A DNA stretch of 22,965 nt, from the IMG/VR virus record IMGVR_UViG_3300022678_000014, positions 1 through 22,965 of that record; one strand, written 5' to 3'. The DNA is from a virus. This document shows, one piece after another, positions 1,619-13,733 of the stretch. The position numbers were made by a program, and so were the translations under genes. The notes beneath the pieces were generated by a model, which saw nothing but the letters and a program-made list of their open reading frames with translations, was not told the DNA's origin and did no database searches. Numbering within the stretch: position 1 is the first letter of the stretch; each line of letters opens with the position of its first letter.

Positions 1619-2198
1619 TCATAGGTCTACAATTTCACACATTCCATCCCCACTGCAAGCCATAGACCTAGCACCAGCACCTGTATCTAGGCCATTCTCA
1701 AACTTGTCTAGCTCATGCCAGTCCAGCGCAACAGTGTGCTCTGCTAACGCTTTGTACTCCTCTTCAGTAATAGCTTGATAGGGTGCCTGCTTGTAACTAC
1801 CAGAGTCCCAAGGCAAGAAACTAACACCACTAATAGTATCAAAGTTCTCATACACCCATGCGCCTACATCCATCCATTCATGTTCCTTAACCTGAATGGT
1901 AACACTAGGCTTGTGCTCACACCAATAGTGTTGAAGCATATGCCAGTCTTTTAGATGCTCTACTGCACTGATGTCTGTTCTCTTGACACTCTTGGTAGGT
2001 GCTTGAATGTAGAAAGAGAAGACAGTTGTAGTGCCTTCCTTGCCTATCGCTGGTTCATTAGGTACTCCTTGGTCTTTGAGAAACATCGTGAGAGGATCTT
2101 TATTATCACCACGAACGGTGCGGATATAATAATCACTATACCTGGGATGACAGCCAGAAGCAGCATCCACAAGCTGACTAACAGTACCGCTAGGCTTA
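1619..2198 (-). CDS. Class II (B12-dependent) ribonucleotide reductase, exon 2
   Basis: Second exon of the RNR gene. After removal of the intron the frame continues GT|T AAG CCT, giving V-K-P-S-G-T-V-S-Q-L-V-D, the phosphate-binding loop of monomeric adenosylcobalamin-dependent reductases of the Lactobacillus RTPR type. ASGCHPRYSDYYIRTVR follows, also typical of that family. The C-terminus carries the mobile cysteine pair (ACSGDGMCEI) that re-reduces the active site. Joined with exon 1 the protein is 623 residues, shorter than the 739-residue L. leichmannii enzyme. The ATG at 2212 lies inside the intron and is not a real start, since the bases before 2198 are intron. Confidence 0.9.
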
Positions 2199-2969
2199 CA
2201 AAAGTTCGTCATTGGTCGTTACCCAATGACCGTCTTAACCGATAGTAGTGTGTCTTACTGATGCCAAACTTAGAGTGTGCGTCCTTAAAGGATAGACTAG
2301 CAACACTCTCTGGATTGTATGTATCCTTGTCAGCCCAGTAGTCTCTACTCACCTTGGAGAACAGCTTCTTATTCTCTTCAGTATGAGACATACCTAGTGC
2401 AGGCTTACGCCCAACACGGGCCTTCTTTAGTTTCTCAATCCAGTCTTCTTTATCAGTAATAAACCACCCACCTTCACCACCGGGTGCTAGATTATAGGTG
2501 TCATCATCAAATGAAATCAACCGAGTCTCTAAATACCCGGCGTACTCCCTATCAGGGCATACACAGAGGATTACCATTAAGAATTGTTCAATACCATACT
2601 TTCTCATGGCAGCATAGAGTGGTCTATTCGTTGTGAAGTAGGCACACTTGTGGGCGTTCCAACGTAATCTTAGGTTGTTGGTAATACCGTAGTACACCTT
2701 GTCATTCACACTGTTGATGATCTTATAAACGTAGCAGACAGCCTTAGATTTCTCTAAGGATCGGACTATATCATCACCCCTACTAAGGGTGCCCTGAGCT
2801 TCCACATCACTTGATGTGTACGAGGACAAAGCCTCTAGTCTCTGAACCTTCAAGAACGTATCAGTGTCCTTGCTTGGCTGCTGATTACCATATGAGGGTA
2901 CTAAGCTCACTTAGGCTTCCAGCAATTCACAGGGTTTACATTAACCATTACTGATTAACGGCGCCATTG
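2199..2969 (-). ncRNA. Group I intron (self-splicing ribozyme) in the RNR gene
   Basis: A 771-nt insertion interrupts the conserved VKPSGTVS motif of the RNR. The core elements are visible on the minus strand in order: P at 2930-2916 (GTGAATTGCTGGAAG), Q at 2886-2873 (AATCAGCAGCCAAG), R at 2847-2834 (GTTCAGAGACTAGA) and S at 2772-2763 (GATATAGTCC). R and S form P7 (GACTA with TAGTC). CTAAG/CTTAG between P and Q fits P5. CCTTAG/CTAAGG just after S fits P9. P1 can be drawn at the 5' site: exon end GCGU pairs with intron GCGC, with the obligatory U.G at the cut. The intron ends in G (2199), and the join restores the RNR frame exactly. A GIY-YIG homing endonuclease gene fills the 3' part. Confidence 0.92.
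2209..2910 (-). CDS. Intron-encoded GIY-YIG homing endonuclease
   Basis: The open frame is 233 codons and ends 10 nt before the 3' splice site. The GIY-YIG domain starts near residue 59: VYK at 61-63, YYG at 73-75, catalytic Arg in RLRW (81-83) and Glu in YLETRL (128). A NUMOD3-like DNA-binding segment follows (GRKPALGMSHTEENKKLF, about 167-184), then a probable helix-turn-helix (about 205-226). The enzyme would cut intronless RNR alleles and drive intron homing. The first 57 codons overlap the ribozyme core and look untranslated or non-conserved. The frame opens with GTG at 2910, and no ATG lies in frame before the catalytic domain, so the true start is unclear and may be a GTG or TTG. Confidence 0.85.
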   Translation of the reverse strand: MSLVPSYGNQQPSKDTDTFLKVQRLEALSSYTSSDVEAQGTLSRGDDIVRSLEKSKAVCYVYKIINSVNDKVYYGITNNLRLRWNAHKCAYFTTNRPLYAAMRKYGIEQFLMVILCVCPDREYAGYLETRLISFDDDTYNLAPGGEGGWFITDKEDWIEKLKKARVGRKPALGMSHTEENKKLFSKVSRDYWADKDTYNPESVASLSFKDAHSKFGISKTHYYRLRRSLGNDQ

Positions 2970-4261
2970 ACGCAAGTGATTGCAGCAGACTCTTCAATAC
3001 CTAGTTCCTTAGCCTGCTTCTGATTAGTGATGATAGCATTACTCTTCCAATGTTCTAGGTTCTGGGGATTCAAGACTAGTTCAGGGTTGTCATAGATACC
3101 AGTAAGACTAACACCTAGTAGCCTCTCACTCTCAGTAGTAGTCTTCCACATGCGTCGAAGATACTTGAAGTCAGTGAGTGTAGCTTGGTGAGTACCGAGT
3201 ATAGTAGCCAGTCGTACTTTATCCGTAACAGATCCACGAGTGTCAGACTCTCTGACAACAACCTCCGATAGATTACAGAATTGATTTGGTCGGAGAATGA
3301 TTTCACTACAGGGATTCGTTCCAAAGTGAAGACACTCTTCTCGTCGTCCGTTGCGCATAGCCTGTAGTAGGGATGCTTGACGGTTAAATATTCCTCTCTC
3401 CCCACTCTTACTTTCGTAAAGACTAGTCCATTCTCGTAGCCATACTCCCATGTCAGGACGTTCGGTGTACACGGCAGAATTATTTGCAAGTGCTCGGTAG
3501 GGATTCTGCTCCCACCATTGTCCACTCTTCGCATGCCTCATCCTTTCATCACTAAGGTTGGATAGACCAATCATAGCTGAACGCCTGACACCACCAACCA
3601 CTACGATATCAGCAATCTTACAGCAGATATCATGGACCTCAATAGAGGTTAGCTTGCGGCCCATAGCTCCGGTAAAGATTCTTGTAGTAAACTCAAAGAG
3701 GTCTTCCAATGGCTCAGGTCCTGAAGCTCTTCCACCAAAGGTTTTAAGTGGAGTGCCGGCAGGACGAACGTCTGATGTGTCCCATCTTGGAATTTGACCT
3801 GAATAGAGAAGACTGATGAGTTCTCGATAGGCCCTACTCCAGCCTGACTTACTGTCACCCACTCTGATGACGGATCCAGATTTCTCAAAATGCTCTGAAA
3901 TTGCTGGTAGCTCATTAATATACTGCCTCTCAGTACTAAAGCCAACTCCTGTACCACACATCAAGATGTACATCAGTTCATCAAAGCACCTGATGTGGTT
4001 AATAGGCAGGTAGCTACAGTTGTACGCTGCTACATTACAGCGGGTTAACGCCTCTCCGGCCGTCCACATAGCACGCATAGATGGCATGACTTCAAGATTG
4101 TAGATAGCATCATAGAGTTCAGACCTAAGAGTACCATCAAGCGGGTTGTCCCGCTCTAAGAAGTCAAGATACCTATTGACAGTCTCATCCCACTGCTCAC
4201 GTCGGTTACCCAGCCATCGTGAGTACCTAGATTTGTAAATAAAGGAAGAATAAGCATCCAT
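2970..4261 (-). CDS. Class II (B12-dependent) ribonucleotide reductase, exon 1
   Basis: Encodes residues 1-430 plus two bases of codon 431. The enzyme reduces ribonucleotides to deoxyribonucleotides using adenosylcobalamin, so it needs no oxygen or separate radical subunit. Visible motifs: C82 in YNCSY (equivalent to RTPR C119), the RRSAMIGL stretch near 226-233, and the catalytic NPCSE (N316, C318, E320) with C329 eleven residues later, the same spacing as C408/C419 of RTPR. The ORF would run seven codons into the intron to a TAA at 2950-2948. That extension is lost on splicing. The start ATG overlaps the stop of the upstream 76-aa gene (TAATG). The N-terminus is shorter than in RTPR. Confidence 0.92.
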
Positions 4262-5444: not shown

Positions 5445-6227
5445 TTACAGGTACTCCTTCTTTAGTGTATCCAAACTAATAGCTTCAAAGTCTTCAAAGG
5501 TACCATTCTCTACACCCTTAAGTACCACAATACCAGACCACCAGTTCTTGGTGCCTGTGCCTGCATACCTAAACGTAGCACTATCACGCTCAATAAAGGA
5601 ACCGCAGACCACACCCCAAATAGGGGTACCATCAATTGCTACCTTACGAGAGATATCAAAGTGATGACTGTGCCCCACAACTGTAGTCCGCATAGTGTGG
5701 TTAACAATATTCGAAGCAAGGTTGATGCCCGACATTGCTCTTGAAGTACCATTTGTAGGTACAAAATGAGTGTAGCTAATGCCATCAATCCCCACAATAG
5801 CAGGAGTGTCGCCGACATAAGGGTAGTACTCCCATCCATTACGTTGCCAATTAAAGCTATGATGTCCGTATGTACTTTTCAACTGGGTAGGATTCCGATT
5901 AATAGCCTTGGTTAGTCGGTAGTCATGGTTACCCTCTAGGGAAACAAAACGAGGTAGGCGCTTTTTAGCACGACGAATAGTAGCGCCCAACAAAGCGTGG
6001 CCCACGACACCAGCATTAAGATCGTCATATAGTGAACGACTATTGAATGACGCCAATCCAGAATCATAATGACATAGAGAAGGGAGGTCGAACCAATCGC
6101 CAATATTGATAAGCACATCAGGACGATAAGCATTGACAAGGTTTCCTAGTGCTGTAAATCTAGAGTAGTTTTCATTAGGTGCTACGTGTGCATCCCCGAT
6201 GACAATATGAATCTTGGTCTTACTCAC
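5445..6227 (-). CDS. Calcineurin-like metallophosphoesterase
   Basis: A 260-residue protein with the full metallophosphoesterase signature: GDAH (D12, H14), GDWFD (D44), GNHD (N100, H101), a His at 154 (YTHF) and GHSH (H186, H188). These residues bind two metals and cleave phosphomono- or diesters. Phage copies of this size are common beside replication genes, and their substrate (nucleic acid, nucleotide or protein phosphate) is usually unknown. The start is GTG with GGAG 7 nt upstream, overlapping the stop of the preceding gene. It has no signal peptide, so it acts in the cytoplasm. Confidence 0.88.
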   Translation of the reverse strand: MSKTKIHIVIGDAHVAPNENYSRFTALGNLVNAYRPDVLINIGDWFDLPSLCHYDSGLASFNSRSLYDDLNAGVVGHALLGATIRRAKKRLPRFVSLEGNHDYRLTKAINRNPTQLKSTYGHHSFNWQRNGWEYYPYVGDTPAIVGIDGISYTHFVPTNGTSRAMSGINLASNIVNHTMRTTVVGHSHHFDISRKVAIDGTPIWGVVCGSFIERDSATFRYAGTGTKNWWSGIVVLKGVENGTFEDFEAISLDTLKKEYL

Positions 6228-6427: not shown

Positions 6428-6586
6428 TTACTCCATCATCAAGATGTCATCATCACTCACATTAAACAAGAAGAAGGTGTCATACACATTACTAGCAAGG
6501 ATGTCGCCATTATCAAAGATACGCTTGATAGTATAAACATTGACATGTCTATACTTGTTGTTAGTGCACATGTAAAGCTTATTCAT
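6428..6586 (-). CDS. Small protein of unknown function
   Basis: A 52-residue protein starting MNKLYMCTNNKYRHV and ending in an acidic SDDDILMME. The ATG overlaps the stop of the GIY-YIG gene (ATGA) and AAGGGA lies 7 nt upstream. It exactly fills an otherwise empty gap between two genes, which supports it. Likely one beta-sheet domain; function unknown. Confidence 0.6.
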   Translation of the reverse strand: MNKLYMCTNNKYRHVNVYTIKRIFDNGDILASNVYDTFFLFNVSDDDILMME

Positions 6587-7077
6587 AGTCTGATCCCTTT
6601 CAACAAACTCTTTACCACTGGTTGATCCTTACCTGCTGGCGCATAGGTATCATCAATCCGTTTGTTATACCAATTAGTGTAATCCAACAGCACATCCTCT
6701 TTGTGTTGGATATTAGTTTCAAGATACCTTAACGCCCCTCTACTTGGTGCTTGACAAAGGATTTCAAACTTAAACTGGTTTAGTCCTAGGTTGCGGATGT
6801 CCCTGTTCACTTCATTAGAGCTACCAGTGTACCATTCCCAATCAGTTTGGTGTGTGTTCTTACCCTTACGTGTATGCCAGTACTGCTTCTTACCTAGGTA
6901 CTTTCTTCCAGTTTTCTTGTTAGTGATGAGATACAAGAATCCAAAGTACTTATGAGGCTCTGGTGTACATCCTTCCCAAGGAGTTCTGGTTGTGGATAGT
7001 CCCTTAGGATCGCAAGCAGGAGCTTGTTTCGATAGTACCTTTGTGCTCCTTCGTCGGGGTCGTTTAGGTTCTGACAT
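6583..7077 (-). CDS. GIY-YIG endonuclease overlapping the exonuclease gene
   Basis: A 164-residue protein. After a basic N-terminus (KRPRRRSTK) comes the GIY-YIG core: FLYLITN (47-53), KYLGKKQYW (59-67) and catalytic Glu in YLETNI (120). The type matches free-standing phage nucleases such as the Seg group, where TPEPHKYFGFLYLITN-like openings are common. Its first 61 codons are read in another frame from the 3' end of the 5' exonuclease gene. The ATG at 7077 has only a weak Shine-Dalgarno site, and the basic leader may be translated poorly. A promoter-like sequence lies 174 nt upstream inside the exonuclease gene. Probably a mobile homing-type nuclease. Confidence 0.8.
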   Translation of the reverse strand: MSEPKRPRRRSTKVLSKQAPACDPKGLSTTRTPWEGCTPEPHKYFGFLYLITNKKTGRKYLGKKQYWHTRKGKNTHQTDWEWYTGSSNEVNRDIRNLGLNQFKFEILCQAPSRGALRYLETNIQHKEDVLLDYTNWYNKRIDDTYAPAGKDQPVVKSLLKGIRL

Positions 7078-7673
7078 ACATACAAATCCAATATCGAGCT
7101 AGGGTGTGGATTCTCCTCTAGATATTTCTTTGCCTTTACTGGTCCCATCCCTCTGATGCCATAGACATTATCAGCATTGTCACCAGTAATTAGTTGTGTG
7201 TATAGAAAGAGATCAGCTTCTTCTTCAGTCACATATTTAAGAGACTTTAAATTATAATGCCATCCCGGTATCTGGTCAAGATCTTTATCAGTGGTTACAA
7301 TACAGGTTGTGTCAACCTCAGCAGCACATTGGAGTATACCTAATCCATCATCAGCTTCTATACCAGCGAGACTAATAGCATCGTAATCAGAGATAAGGTA
7401 ATCACGAAGCTGACCAAGATGCTGAGGAATCTTTGCACCCTTACGGTTTCCCTTATATGCTGGACCATCAGATGTCTTACTCACCTGCTTTCTAAACTGA
7501 TGTGGCCCTGTTAAAAAGATAGTACCATCATGACAGTCAAGCTTATCTGCCACTCTCATGATGGTACTGTCAAGACGTGCCTTAGCAGCGTGGTAGCCCA
7601 CTTTCTCAGTCGACCAAGCTGTACGATAAAGCAGGATATCCCCGTCGATAAGAAGATGCCTAAAAGACGGCAT
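6894..7673 (-). CDS. 5'-3' exonuclease (FEN/T7 gp6-like)
   Basis: A 259-residue protein of the flap-endonuclease superfamily. Metal-binding acidic residues appear in order: D10 and D12 (LLIDGD), E106, D108 and D109 (GIEADDG), D129 and D131 (TTDKDLDQIPG), D165 and D168 (ITGDNADN). A helix-hairpin-helix DNA-binding motif follows (GIRGMGPVKAKKYL, 172-185). By family it removes RNA primers and degrades host DNA in T7-like replication. T7 gp6 is about 300 residues. Here the C-terminus past about residue 235 is overprinted on the GIY-YIG nuclease gene and may be a replacement tail. The start overlaps the upstream 64-aa gene by 14 nt. Confidence 0.88.
   Translation of the reverse strand: MPSFRHLLIDGDILLYRTAWSTEKVGYHAAKARLDSTIMRVADKLDCHDGTIFLTGPHQFRKQVSKTSDGPAYKGNRKGAKIPQHLGQLRDYLISDYDAISLAGIEADDGLGILQCAAEVDTTCIVTTDKDLDQIPGWHYNLKSLKYVTEEEADLFLYTQLITGDNADNVYGIRGMGPVKAKKYLEENPHPSSILDLYVCQNLNDPDEGAQRYYRNKLLLAILRDYPQPELLGKDVHQSLISTLDSCISSLTRKLEEST
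7251..7279 (-). promoter_or_regulatory. Possible sigma70 promoter inside the exonuclease gene
   Basis: On the minus strand TTGACC (7279-7274), a 17-nt spacer and a perfect TATAAT (7256-7251) lie upstream of the GIY-YIG gene at 7077. The sequence also encodes a conserved exonuclease stretch (LDQIPGWHYN), so it may be chance. Confidence 0.3.
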
Positions 7674-8580: not shown

Positions 8581-8609
8581 ATTATAGCCGATCAAACTTA
8601 GACAGTCAA
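8581..8609 (-). promoter_or_regulatory. Sigma70-type promoter before the SSB-candidate genes
   Basis: Minus strand: TTGACT (8609-8604), 17-nt spacer, perfect TATAAT (8586-8581). It sits in the short gap behind the HNH gene, with the -35 box inside the last codons of that gene, and would start transcripts near 8575 for the 59-aa gene and the ssDNA-binding candidate. Confidence 0.7.
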
Positions 8610-9020
8610 TAGATATTTATGGGCGTTAGTCAGTGTTTCTAGGTCATCTTTAAAAAGTCCTAGCCCTCTGTTACAGTTATGACAAAGTAAACCTCTAACC
8701 TTTCCTGTCTTATGGTCATGGTCTACCACTAACTTGAGCTTGTGGTGTTGGGCCATGACAAACCCCTCACCACCACAGATAGCGCACTTCCTGTCTTGAC
8801 ATTCAAGAAGACGACAGTACTCCTTATAATCTATTCCGTAATTTCTTTTTAGATAAGCTGATGTCTGCCCTGATGTAGAACACTCTGTAGAACAGTACAA
8901 ATTACAAGGGGAAACAGGTGCAAACATAGTACCACAACATTTACAAGCTTTATCTTTAAACCATTTCTGTGGCCAATCACTAGCTTTAGTCGTTACAATT
9001 GGGTTGTGTCTCAGATACAT
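8598..9020 (-). CDS. HNH endonuclease (endonuclease VII-like) with own promoter
   Basis: A 140-residue protein. An N-terminal zinc-ribbon-like part (C26, C28, C29, C39, C43, C47) is followed by an endonuclease VII/HNH fold: C79-x-x-C82, the DHDH motif at 100-103, and LLCHNCNRGLG with C113, H114, N115, C116. This DHDH...CHNCN type includes T4 endonuclease VII resolvase and many free-standing homing nucleases. AGGAG lies 6 nt before the ATG. It stands alone between DNA polymerase and the SSB candidate, with its own promoter upstream and another promoter at its end, so it looks like an inserted cassette. A Holliday-junction role cannot be excluded. Confidence 0.85.
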   Translation of the reverse strand: MYLRHNPIVTTKASDWPQKWFKDKACKCCGTMFAPVSPCNLYCSTECSTSGQTSAYLKRNYGIDYKEYCRLLECQDRKCAICGGEGFVMAQHHKLKLVVDHDHKTGKVRGLLCHNCNRGLGLFKDDLETLTNAHKYLLTV

Positions 9021-9081: not shown

Positions 9082-10890
9082 TCAGTGGGTGAATTTCCAC
9101 GAGGAACCTACTCTCCATTCCCCATCGATAGGGCACCCACACTTATAATATCTCCCAGCTTGTTGAAGAGCCAAGGTTTGGATAGGGCCTAGTTTGTTAG
9201 CAGTCGCCAATGAATCAACTTCAGTTTGCCACTCATCGTGATTAACTGTAACTAAAGTATAGTTTAATTCCTCTTTGTCTGCTCTCCTTGTCCAGATACG
9301 TAGAGCGCGTTTCATAATCGATGCCTCGCCCTCTTGTAAATAAGAGGCCAGCCAGTCACCATGCCAATCACTTTGACAAGGCATTCGCCTATGAGTAATC
9401 CGACTAGTTACATATCCCTTACGAGCTTGCTGTTTGCCTTCCTTCATGAGATCAGATAACCCAGGGATGAGGACATACAATAAATCCCTCAACTCTTCTG
9501 CTTCTCCTAAAGAGCATTGGGCCTGTGCTGCCAGTTTAGGAATACCTGCACCTAAGAGAAACGAGTACGTTATTGTCTTAATCTGAGAGCGCTTAACTTC
9601 TTTACTGAGAAGAACTGTTCCTTCATCTGCATGTGTCTGATGTATGTCAGAGCCAGGAGCAGTTAGTTTACTGATCCACTCTCTATCTCCTGTGTAGTGC
9701 GCCAGGACTCGAAGTTGAATACCACTTGCATCACATCCAAGAAGAGCCTTACCTTCTGGGACACTCCAACAATCCCGACATTCAGCACCGTAAGGGGCAT
9801 CACTGGATGGAACCTGGGTAATCGGTGGATCTCTGTGAGCCATTCGGTGAGTGCGGGTTCCGATGTGAATGATTGAACCGTGCTGTCGGTGAGTGTCATG
9901 ATTATAAAACTCCAACCATTTATCTATCTGTTTAGTGATACGGGTGTTAAGGATACGCCACTCTTGGTACGGCTTGTATTGGTCACCTACCTGATGGATG
10001 ATATCATCAAGCAACTCATCACTTAGCTTTGGCTGCCCCGTTGGTGTGAATACTTTGGGTTGCCAGCCAGCCTTGAGAAGGTGTCGACGAATGAACACAT
10101 CTCTAGTGTATTCAGGCTTGGGGTAGTCAACCCAGGTGAACTCAGCTCCTGGCTCGAACCACTCGACCGGACAGCCTCTAAGGCCTCGCTCACCAAGGCT
10201 TCCGTCCTTTCTAGCCTTTGGTTTGTACGTCTCAAGCTCGCCTTTAACGAACTTAGCTTCTGGGAGAGAAGGGAATAAGTCTCGTAGCTCATCTTCACAT
10301 GCTTGTCGTTTGTCACTAAGCTCACTCCTAAGGATACTACACTTCTCGATATCAAACCAGAACCCATGCCGCTGTACTTGTGTCATCTTCCAGTGTACCC
10401 ACTCTTCAAGATACACTTCAGACCACGGTATCTGTTTCTCATTGATACTATTAATCAGCAGTTTGTATAGCTTGGCGTTGATACGACAGTCTTCAACATT
10501 ACGATGGACCATAGCGTCAGATAGCTGTGACCAATCTTCGTGCTCTGGCTTCTGTACTCCTAGTCGTTGTCCCCATGCATCCAGACTATGGCCACCATCC
10601 CGATTACTGTTATCAATCCGAGATATGCAAAGAGTATCATGACACTGGTCCAGTGGAAGGGCAAAGTCAAGAAGATCACTGACAACCCACCAATCGTAGC
10701 CGAGAAGGTTATGACCAATAAAGTTAGAACCTTTAGATATCTCTCTCTTGAGGACACTGTGTAATTCCTCCATGTTAGTGTAAGATTTGTATTCACCTGT
10801 ATCTAAGTCCCATACTGTACCAACCCAGATGGTGGTATAGTTAGGCCATAGTCCGTCAGTTTCTAAATCGAGAACAATCTTTCCACTCAA
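9082..10890 (-). CDS. DNA polymerase, family A (T7 gp5-like)
   Basis: A 602-residue replicative polymerase with a 3'-5' exonuclease domain at the N-terminus (D8 and E10 in DLETDG, D66 in LLGYDWW) and the family A palm and fingers: motif A GCDASGIQLR (D386), motif B KTITYSFLLGAG (K438, Y442) and motif C VNHDEW (H551, D552, E553). The Tyr in motif B matches the T7 polymerase residue that allows dideoxynucleotide use. It is shorter than T7 gp5 (704 residues). The start is TTG with a strong GAGGAG 8 nt upstream; no nearby in-frame ATG would keep the exonuclease motif. It overlaps the upstream small gene by 35 nt. Promoter 9045-9073 follows its stop. Confidence 0.95.
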   Translation of the reverse strand: MSGKIVLDLETDGLWPNYTTIWVGTVWDLDTGEYKSYTNMEELHSVLKREISKGSNFIGHNLLGYDWWVVSDLLDFALPLDQCHDTLCISRIDNSNRDGGHSLDAWGQRLGVQKPEHEDWSQLSDAMVHRNVEDCRINAKLYKLLINSINEKQIPWSEVYLEEWVHWKMTQVQRHGFWFDIEKCSILRSELSDKRQACEDELRDLFPSLPEAKFVKGELETYKPKARKDGSLGERGLRGCPVEWFEPGAEFTWVDYPKPEYTRDVFIRRHLLKAGWQPKVFTPTGQPKLSDELLDDIIHQVGDQYKPYQEWRILNTRITKQIDKWLEFYNHDTHRQHGSIIHIGTRTHRMAHRDPPITQVPSSDAPYGAECRDCWSVPEGKALLGCDASGIQLRVLAHYTGDREWISKLTAPGSDIHQTHADEGTVLLSKEVKRSQIKTITYSFLLGAGIPKLAAQAQCSLGEAEELRDLLYVLIPGLSDLMKEGKQQARKGYVTSRITHRRMPCQSDWHGDWLASYLQEGEASIMKRALRIWTRRADKEELNYTLVTVNHDEWQTEVDSLATANKLGPIQTLALQQAGRYYKCGCPIDGEWRVGSSWKFTH

Positions 10891-12632: not shown

Positions 12633-13733
12633 TTATGGGGCATACCACTGCATCAAAGCAGCCCAACTGTAAGGGAACTCATCAGCTAGTGGTTCAACAA
12701 ACATCTCAGCAAAGTCTCTGATCTCCTTCTGAGCGCTTCGCTCTGTCCTTTGCTTAACAAAGTGTGCCCAAGCAAGGAGACTACCAGTCCATACCCATTC
12801 GGTCATTTGAGATTGTGGCATAAAACCGCGAGCCTGTTCTGGACAAACTCCTTGATCAACTAAATTCCGGTAAAGGGATTGCATCTCTGAATAAAATTGA
12901 CCAACAGAATCGATTTGAGGAACTAAGTATCCGCCATGAAGAGTTAGAACAGACTTGGCAAATTCAACAAGTTCTTCTTTGTTCGCTGAATTTTTCATAG
13001 CGTTAGCTTTGTGGCTAATCGTTTGGATATTGTTTTTAGTATATCCGAATCTGTTATCAACACGATCTACTGATGGTGAGTTATCTTGAATAGCATTAGC
13101 TGAGTAGTCTAATTTGATACTCAAGTACACACAGGTCTCCGGCATTGGGATATCATCGGCTACTAGATCAATAGGGATGCCCCTTTCTTGGGCACTAATT
13201 TTAAGTCGTTCTAACTTAGCAACGCGCCATCCTTTATTCGTAATCTTATATGCCTTGCCCTGACATTTTGGAGTGCAAAACTTTTGCCTGTTATTCCTAG
13301 AAATAAACTCATCTTTACAGTATGGGCATACTCCCTTCGATCCCTTTATAACAATAGCTTCATCAGAAGAACCCTGCTTTACATTGTCAGCTCTCTTACG
13401 CCATACCTCAGGGATATAAAACTCTGGAGTTTCATCAACGTACCTACGAGAAACTTCACTCCATGACATGCCTACTTGATGTTTTCCAGCCTGACGAGCA
13501 ACAAAGAGGGGAGCACTACATTGGAATGTCATCTGAGGGTGTCGGAAGGGAAGCCAATGAGAATGCTCGGCAAGGTATTGGATTAGCCTCGCATCCTTTT
13601 CTGATAACGTAAAAGATTCTGCCCAATAGTTACCATCTAAATCTTCTTGCCAATTAGATACTTTACTAAAGCTGGCTCTTGCTGCATTAACGACAAGCAA
13701 GTCACCCTTCCAATCTACTGGGTTAGCTTTCAT
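12633..13733 (-). CDS. thyX: Flavin-dependent thymidylate synthase ThyX with in-frame HNH endonuclease insertion
   Basis: A 366-residue single frame. Residues 1-122 and about 272-366 form ThyX: RHPQMTFQCSAPLFVARQ, the signature-region RQAGKHQVGMSWSEVSRRY (80-98), EFYIPEVWRKRADN, then FYSEMQSLYRNLVDQGV, the PQSQMTEW stretch and QKEIRDFAEM. The enzyme makes dTMP from dUMP using FAD and methylenetetrahydrofolate. Residues about 125-270 are foreign: a zinc-knuckle (C136, C139, C153, C157) and a phage HNH nuclease (NSPSVDRVDNRFGYTKNNIQTISHKANAMK, given here as two parts: NSPSVDRVDNRFGY at 218-231 and TKNNIQTISHKANAMK). Without the insert ThyX is about 216 residues, the normal phage size. No intein splice motifs are visible. 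The start overlaps the upstream stop (ATGA). Confidence 0.9.
   Translation of the reverse strand: MKANPVDWKGDLLVVNAARASFSKVSNWQEDLDGNYWAESFTLSEKDARLIQYLAEHSHWLPFRHPQMTFQCSAPLFVARQAGKHQVGMSWSEVSRRYVDETPEFYIPEVWRKRADNVKQGSSDEAIVIKGSKGVCPYCKDEFISRNNRQKFCTPKCQGKAYKITNKGWRVAKLERLKISAQERGIPIDLVADDIPMPETCVYLSIKLDYSANAIQDNSPSVDRVDNRFGYTKNNIQTISHKANAMKNSANKEELVEFAKSVLTLHGGYLVPQIDSVGQFYSEMQSLYRNLVDQGVCPEQARGFMPQSQMTEWVWTGSLLAWAHFVKQRTERSAQKEIRDFAEMFVEPLADEFPYSWAALMQWYAP

Follow-up and report, generated by a model that had tools for sequence, protein, structure and literature searches.

A putative HNH homing endonuclease recurs in frame at one site within phage ThyX

Introduction

To our knowledge, homing nucleases that interrupt a coding sequence are thought either to need a self-splicing intron or intein or to split the gene in which they reside. 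The authors who reported on the WHO elements of yeast name two recognised classes of homing element, inteins and intron-encoded nucleases, both of which are self-splicing (PMC7282813). Inteins carrying an HNH nuclease are present in ThyX itself, including in mycobacteriophage (PMC5050341). Genes are split by mobE in nrdA of Aeromonas phage Aeh1 and by mobA in gene 60 of T4 (PMC2988022). In-frame fusions of rps3 with LAGLIDADG sequences in Ophiostoma mitochondria are described in PMC7902536, which cites Gibb and Hausner 2005.

Here we describe an HNH-type insert within the thyX reading frame of a 22,965-base viral contig from IMG/VR (the whole of which we refer to as the window), whose DNA polymerase is closest to those of SIO1-like (zobellvirid) podoviruses. 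Freestanding phage HNH endonucleases (PHROG 3322; PacI-like zinc-ribbon HNH) share the domain order, DRID-GY-N-N-K core and C-terminal helix of this insert, but each has start and stop codons of its own and is located next to genes, whereas the ThyX insert has neither codon and sits inside a gene. The ThyX inteins, of mycobacteriophage and of our locus L041, are likewise in-frame nuclease insertions at one site in thyX. In contrast to these inteins, the ThyX-HNH insert has no splicing domain, lies at a different site and is taken up over its whole length by the nuclease. Aeh1 mobE and T4 mobA also place an HNH nuclease within the coding sequence of an enzyme of DNA metabolism, which remains functional, as we predict for ThyX; however, they yield separate polypeptides, while ThyX-HNH is one continuous frame. 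The Ophiostoma fusions similarly join a homing endonuclease sequence in frame to a host gene, but this is a LAGLIDADG sequence in an organelle, within intron-encoded rps3, rather than an HNH within a phage enzyme loop. WHO elements likewise home into an enzyme gene without splicing, but they sit downstream and replace the 3' end, whereas the ThyX-HNH element interrupts the gene (PMC7282813). We found no report of such an HNH inside ThyX in the literature.

Results and Discussion

The ThyX-HNH fusion ORF lies on the minus strand of the window at positions 12633 to 13733, as do all of its parts given below, and encodes 366 aa. Its product matched Pfam Thy1 (PF02511; E 5e-40, 137.7 bits against a cut-off of 24.8) in two stretches flanking the insert and NCBIfam thyX (TIGR02170; E 1e-33, 116.4 bits against a cut-off of 87.9), also in two stretches. 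Between these, at residues ~130-264, PHROG HNH families matched (phrog_3322, E 9e-23 to 5e-22). The edges were placed by alignment with uninterrupted phage ThyX. The N-terminal ThyX part (residues 1-123, 13365-13733) ends in KQGSS, within RADNVKQGSS, and ThyX is back at residues ~275-277, ahead of the helix leading to PEQAR; its C-terminal part comprises residues 276-366 and the stop codon (12633-12908). The profiles and alignment confirmed the original prediction that the 366-codon frame is ThyX interrupted by a zinc motif and HNH nuclease and then resumed, with no stop codon across its 366 codons. The insert that had been placed at 12900-13375 is also present, but its edges lie slightly further in, at 12909-13364 (residues 124-275), a span that rests additionally on the PHROG match, freestanding relatives and an AlphaFold2 model.

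Pattern and profile scans of IMG/VR detected an in-frame HNH in thyX in at least six further distinct contigs, making at least seven with the window. The fused members are the window, L008, L011, L075, L097, L100 and L205, with L008 counted as one with L007 and L098, whose proteins are identical to it. Chance and misassembly were excluded as sources of the fusion, because the same arrangement is found in six other distinct contigs. All seven inserts begin directly after KQGSS (residues 119-123, codons at 13365-13379). Every ThyX row of the insertion-site alignment has the motif KQGS, as do 137 of 187 ThyX ORFs or fragments. The loop at this site naturally tolerates changes in length: uninterrupted rows that were measured had 18-43 residues from Ser 123 to Tyr 288, against 142-171 for the interrupted proteins, and approximately 128 other ThyX ORFs that were compared had only an ordinary variable loop.

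Searches of named phages with the fused proteins matched 1021-1252 records, and no fusion was present among the matches listed. Few of these matches covered at least 80% of the query, at low identity, and the two inspected were ordinary ThyX proteins of 236 and 255 aa. A scan of bacterial genome contigs gave no fused ThyX among the best loci, and a single-protein scan of IMG/VR gave no match. A nucleotide pattern scan for the C side of the insert also gave no match, because most relatives lack the exact WxWT codons.

Judged by its sequence, the insert is a complete phage HNH protein of the freestanding type, minus its own start and stop codons. In the window it consists, in order, of a Cys4 zinc ribbon, a linker helix, a DRVDNRFGY...N...SHKANAMK core and a C-terminal helix, the same helix at which freestanding nuclease relatives stop. 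The zinc ribbon (CPYC..CTPKC, residues 136-157, 13263-13328) has the motif CPYC-X13-CTPKC, with Cys 136, 139, 153 and 157. These four Cys are invariant in six of the seven inserts, that of L205 being an HNH without a zinc ribbon. The beta-beta-alpha metal (HNH) core covers residues 220-249 (SVDRVDNRFGYTKNN...SHKANAMK, 12987-13076). An AlphaFold2 model of the insert alone (mean pLDDT 93) contained the core elements E97-101, E113-117 and H118-126, and Foldseek with this model gave PacI (3ldy) as the top solved match (prob 1.00, E 3e-3). Together the modelled beta-beta-alpha metal fold, PacI as its best match and the PHROG endonuclease assignment point to an endonuclease fold of a known homing family. 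A match of the insert to a designed TPR in the PDB sequence search was dismissed as a repeat artefact.

In canonical HNH nucleases, the first strand of the core ends in a catalytic His. This first His is absent from the window, which has Arg 224 (DRVD) at this position, and from all relatives with the motif, which have Arg or Lys; the motif of the subfamily is DRID, with Arg in place of the usual His. A Tyr has been proposed as the catalytic base of PacI (PMC4081073). Tyr 231 of the fusion ORF is invariant here and may act likewise, and catalysis by the insert is predicted from its PacI-like fold. Two members depart from the motif. In L097 (4533-5639), which has NRIN with ML, the acidic residues of the motif are gone, and L100 (4968-6008) has the variant motif DKIV; both frames are still open. 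The L097 insert may be dead and that of L100 is perhaps also degenerate, so some of the copies may be inactive.

ThyX forms a tetramer, with which the extra domain might clash. We mapped its catalytic and ligand residues by alignment onto the solved ThyX of T. maritima and T. thermophilus. In all seven interrupted proteins, H65, Q81, H85, E93, S95, R97 and Y98 of the N-terminal part and E299, R302 and R329 of the C-terminal part were invariant; we take the roles of these residues around FAD and dUMP to be those generally known for T. maritima ThyX. A model of the fused protein (pLDDT 86.5, pTM 0.67) matched the ThyX structures of both species (TMt ~0.67-0.75), and in it the HNH forms an additional loop domain.

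Synonymous differences in the insert were saturated (pS 0.76-0.95) while pN was 0.21-0.48, and ThyX gave similar values; no number is given for dN/dS, dS being saturated. Nucleotide identity near both edges of the insert was low, at 46-60%. Saturated synonymous sites, a conserved protein and low nucleotide identity at the edges indicate that selection acts on the reading frame and not on the RNA. From the catalytic residues, the fold model and this selection, we infer that ThyX folds around the HNH domain and remains active. The suggestion of a nuclease translated as a loop domain within a functional ThyX is accordingly well supported, by seven open frames, the catalytic residues, the variable loop, the fold model and the lack of a splicing element in the members searched.

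Evidence for movement of the insert came from comparison of thyX alleles. L146 is syntenic with L008, with flanks of 73-80% DNA identity, and has an uninterrupted thyX, which constitutes an empty allele. The inserts of L008 and L011 are 72% identical and their ThyX parts 54-61%. The ThyX tree joins L008 and the uninterrupted L146 as sisters (100/100) and places L011 within the SIO1/CRP-603 group, whereas in the insert tree the L008 and L011 inserts are sisters (100/97). The AU test rejected both the seven ThyX hosts as a single clade (p = 8e-6) and the L008 and L011 ThyX as sisters (p = 3e-4). It accepted the seven inserts as a single clade among freestanding phage HNH proteins (p 0.75), a clade that had moderate support in the unconstrained tree (80/92). 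The phylogenies of element and host gene are therefore in conflict, as is characteristic of homing elements, and the fixed site, occupied in some relatives and empty in others, is a further such characteristic. The tree conflict, the single site and the empty alleles indicate that the cassette moved between thyX alleles as homing elements do, and that one site-specific nuclease lineage was passed between them. This extends the original prediction, which concerned a single locus: the cassette recurs, is tied to one fixed site and moves between thyX genes, behaving like a homing element.

At least four putative mobile nucleases are encoded in the 23 kb of the window. An RNR gene (1619-4261, minus strand) is interrupted by a group I intron (RF00028, 2742-2979, E 6.5e-22) that carries a GIY-YIG ORF (2209-2910). 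A SegE-like GIY-YIG endonuclease ORF (6583-7077, minus strand) overlaps an exonuclease-like ORF (6894-7673) at the latter's 3' end, in a different frame, and an Endonuclease VII-like ORF with a zinc motif (8598-9020, minus strand) lies beside the family A DNA polymerase gene (9082-10890). An rIIA-like GHKL ATPase protein is also encoded on this SIO1-like podovirus contig (17760-19694, minus strand). Other mobile elements were observed at thyX loci elsewhere. ThyX of L041 (9120-11090) has a genuine HNH-bearing intein at another site, the RHR motif, and a thyX on a bacterial contig (L334, 136-1695) is interrupted by a group I intron (RF00028, 947-1165) close to the flavin motif. In L105 (5001-6158), a complete thyX is followed by a LAGLIDADG ORF (5662-6006; PF00961, 4e-6) and an orphan thyX 3' fragment (6006-6158), an arrangement that resembles the yeast WHO elements.

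We consider it probable that the insert is an unspliced, in-frame homing endonuclease of the zinc-ribbon, PacI-like HNH type that forms a loop domain of a working ThyX. A homing endonuclease gene would have been stripped of its start and stop codons and would now reside in frame in a surface loop of ThyX. The open frame suggests that a single ThyX-HNH polypeptide is made, and ThyX would accommodate the additional domain in its fold and remain active. In a mixed infection, the HNH may nick or cut an uninterrupted thyX near the KQGSS codons, and repair would copy the cassette in; cutting and copying are proposed because of the phylogenetic conflict, the fixed site and the empty alleles. The occupied allele would be immune to its own nuclease, because the insert splits the target. 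No intron or intein would be needed, because the loop tolerates changes in length.

It is also conceivable, though we regard it as unlikely, that the HNH-fold insert is a domesticated domain that no longer homes and serves ThyX or the phage, for example in DNA binding, localisation or regulation, its scatter resulting from recombination and loss. The family-wide absence of the HNH His would fit such a role, as would the strong purifying selection and the inclusion of proteins named Srd or sigma decoy in related PHROGs. The degenerate motif of L097 fits as well, since its frame has stayed open as expected of a retained domain. However, the one fixed site, the conflict between the ThyX and insert trees and the empty alleles are what homing predicts, and most inserts keep the DRID..GY..N..N..K core found in freestanding nuclease-like relatives.

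The three known ways to interrupt a gene, by intein, intron or split gene, were tested and none fits. Removal of the insert by an unrecognised form of protein- or RNA-level splicing, raised in the original prediction as an alternative to a loop domain, is unsupported, and we think it very improbable. The insertion is precise and adjoins a very conserved motif, and elsewhere thyX does harbour a true intein, in L041, and a group I intron, in L334. Against splicing of the protein, the intein models TIGR01445, TIGR01443 and PF14890 matched none of the seven fusions, while the same search found the L041 intein through intein N, intein C, splicing-domain and HNH models. There is no HN-(C/S/T) at the C edge (GGYLVPQIDS and homologues), and Ser 122/123 are already part of KQGSS in uninterrupted ThyX; a nuclease of ~140 residues also leaves no room for a splicing domain. 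Against splicing of the RNA, Rfam searches detected no group I intron at thyX of the window even at E<=10, or in the other members, with the RNR intron of the window and that of L334 recovered as positive controls, and the poorly conserved edge nucleotides argue that no RNA core is shared. The claims that intein splice blocks and a group I core are lacking both held in these controlled searches. The frame is moreover open in all seven members, and the loop is variable in length in any case.

We give even less weight to the nuclease being freed as a separate protein by an internal translation start or by proteolysis, leaving a split ThyX like Aeh1 NrdA. Aeh1 mobE is a precedent (PMC2988022), and in L097 and L100 there are in-frame start codons close to where the insert begins. 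However, the first ThyX part does not end in a stop codon, and the separate ORFs delimited by stop and start codons seen for mobE were not found, all seven members having a single open frame. The window, L075, L011 and L205 have no in-frame ATG, GTG or TTG before or within the zinc-ribbon region; before the HNH core, such starts are absent from L205 and restricted to codons 197-204 in the window. Most inserts have no usable start codon for themselves, and a free nuclease would thus not be easily produced from these four.

Least probable of all is a dead passenger, an inactive nuclease in a non-functional or recently broken thyX left open by chance, which the metagenomic origin of the window and the putative nature of its function might allow, but which is contradicted by seven divergent open frames, by protein conservation in ThyX and insert despite synonymous saturation, and by invariant catalytic residues.

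Conclusions

On balance, we lean towards regarding ThyX-HNH as an additional structural class of homing element, unspliced and fully in frame, whose host enzyme would keep the nuclease as a permanent loop domain that spreads among the thyX genes of distant phages without an intron, an intein or an intergenic position. A cassette that repeatedly enters one enzyme loop and is apparently kept in the mature protein represents a simpler solution than splicing or splitting of the gene. The natural occupied and empty thyX alleles, one pair of which is in syntenic phages, are usable for work on homing and on domain insertion. With ThyX-HNH, the idea that mobile nucleases give rise to new multidomain enzymes can be put to the test.
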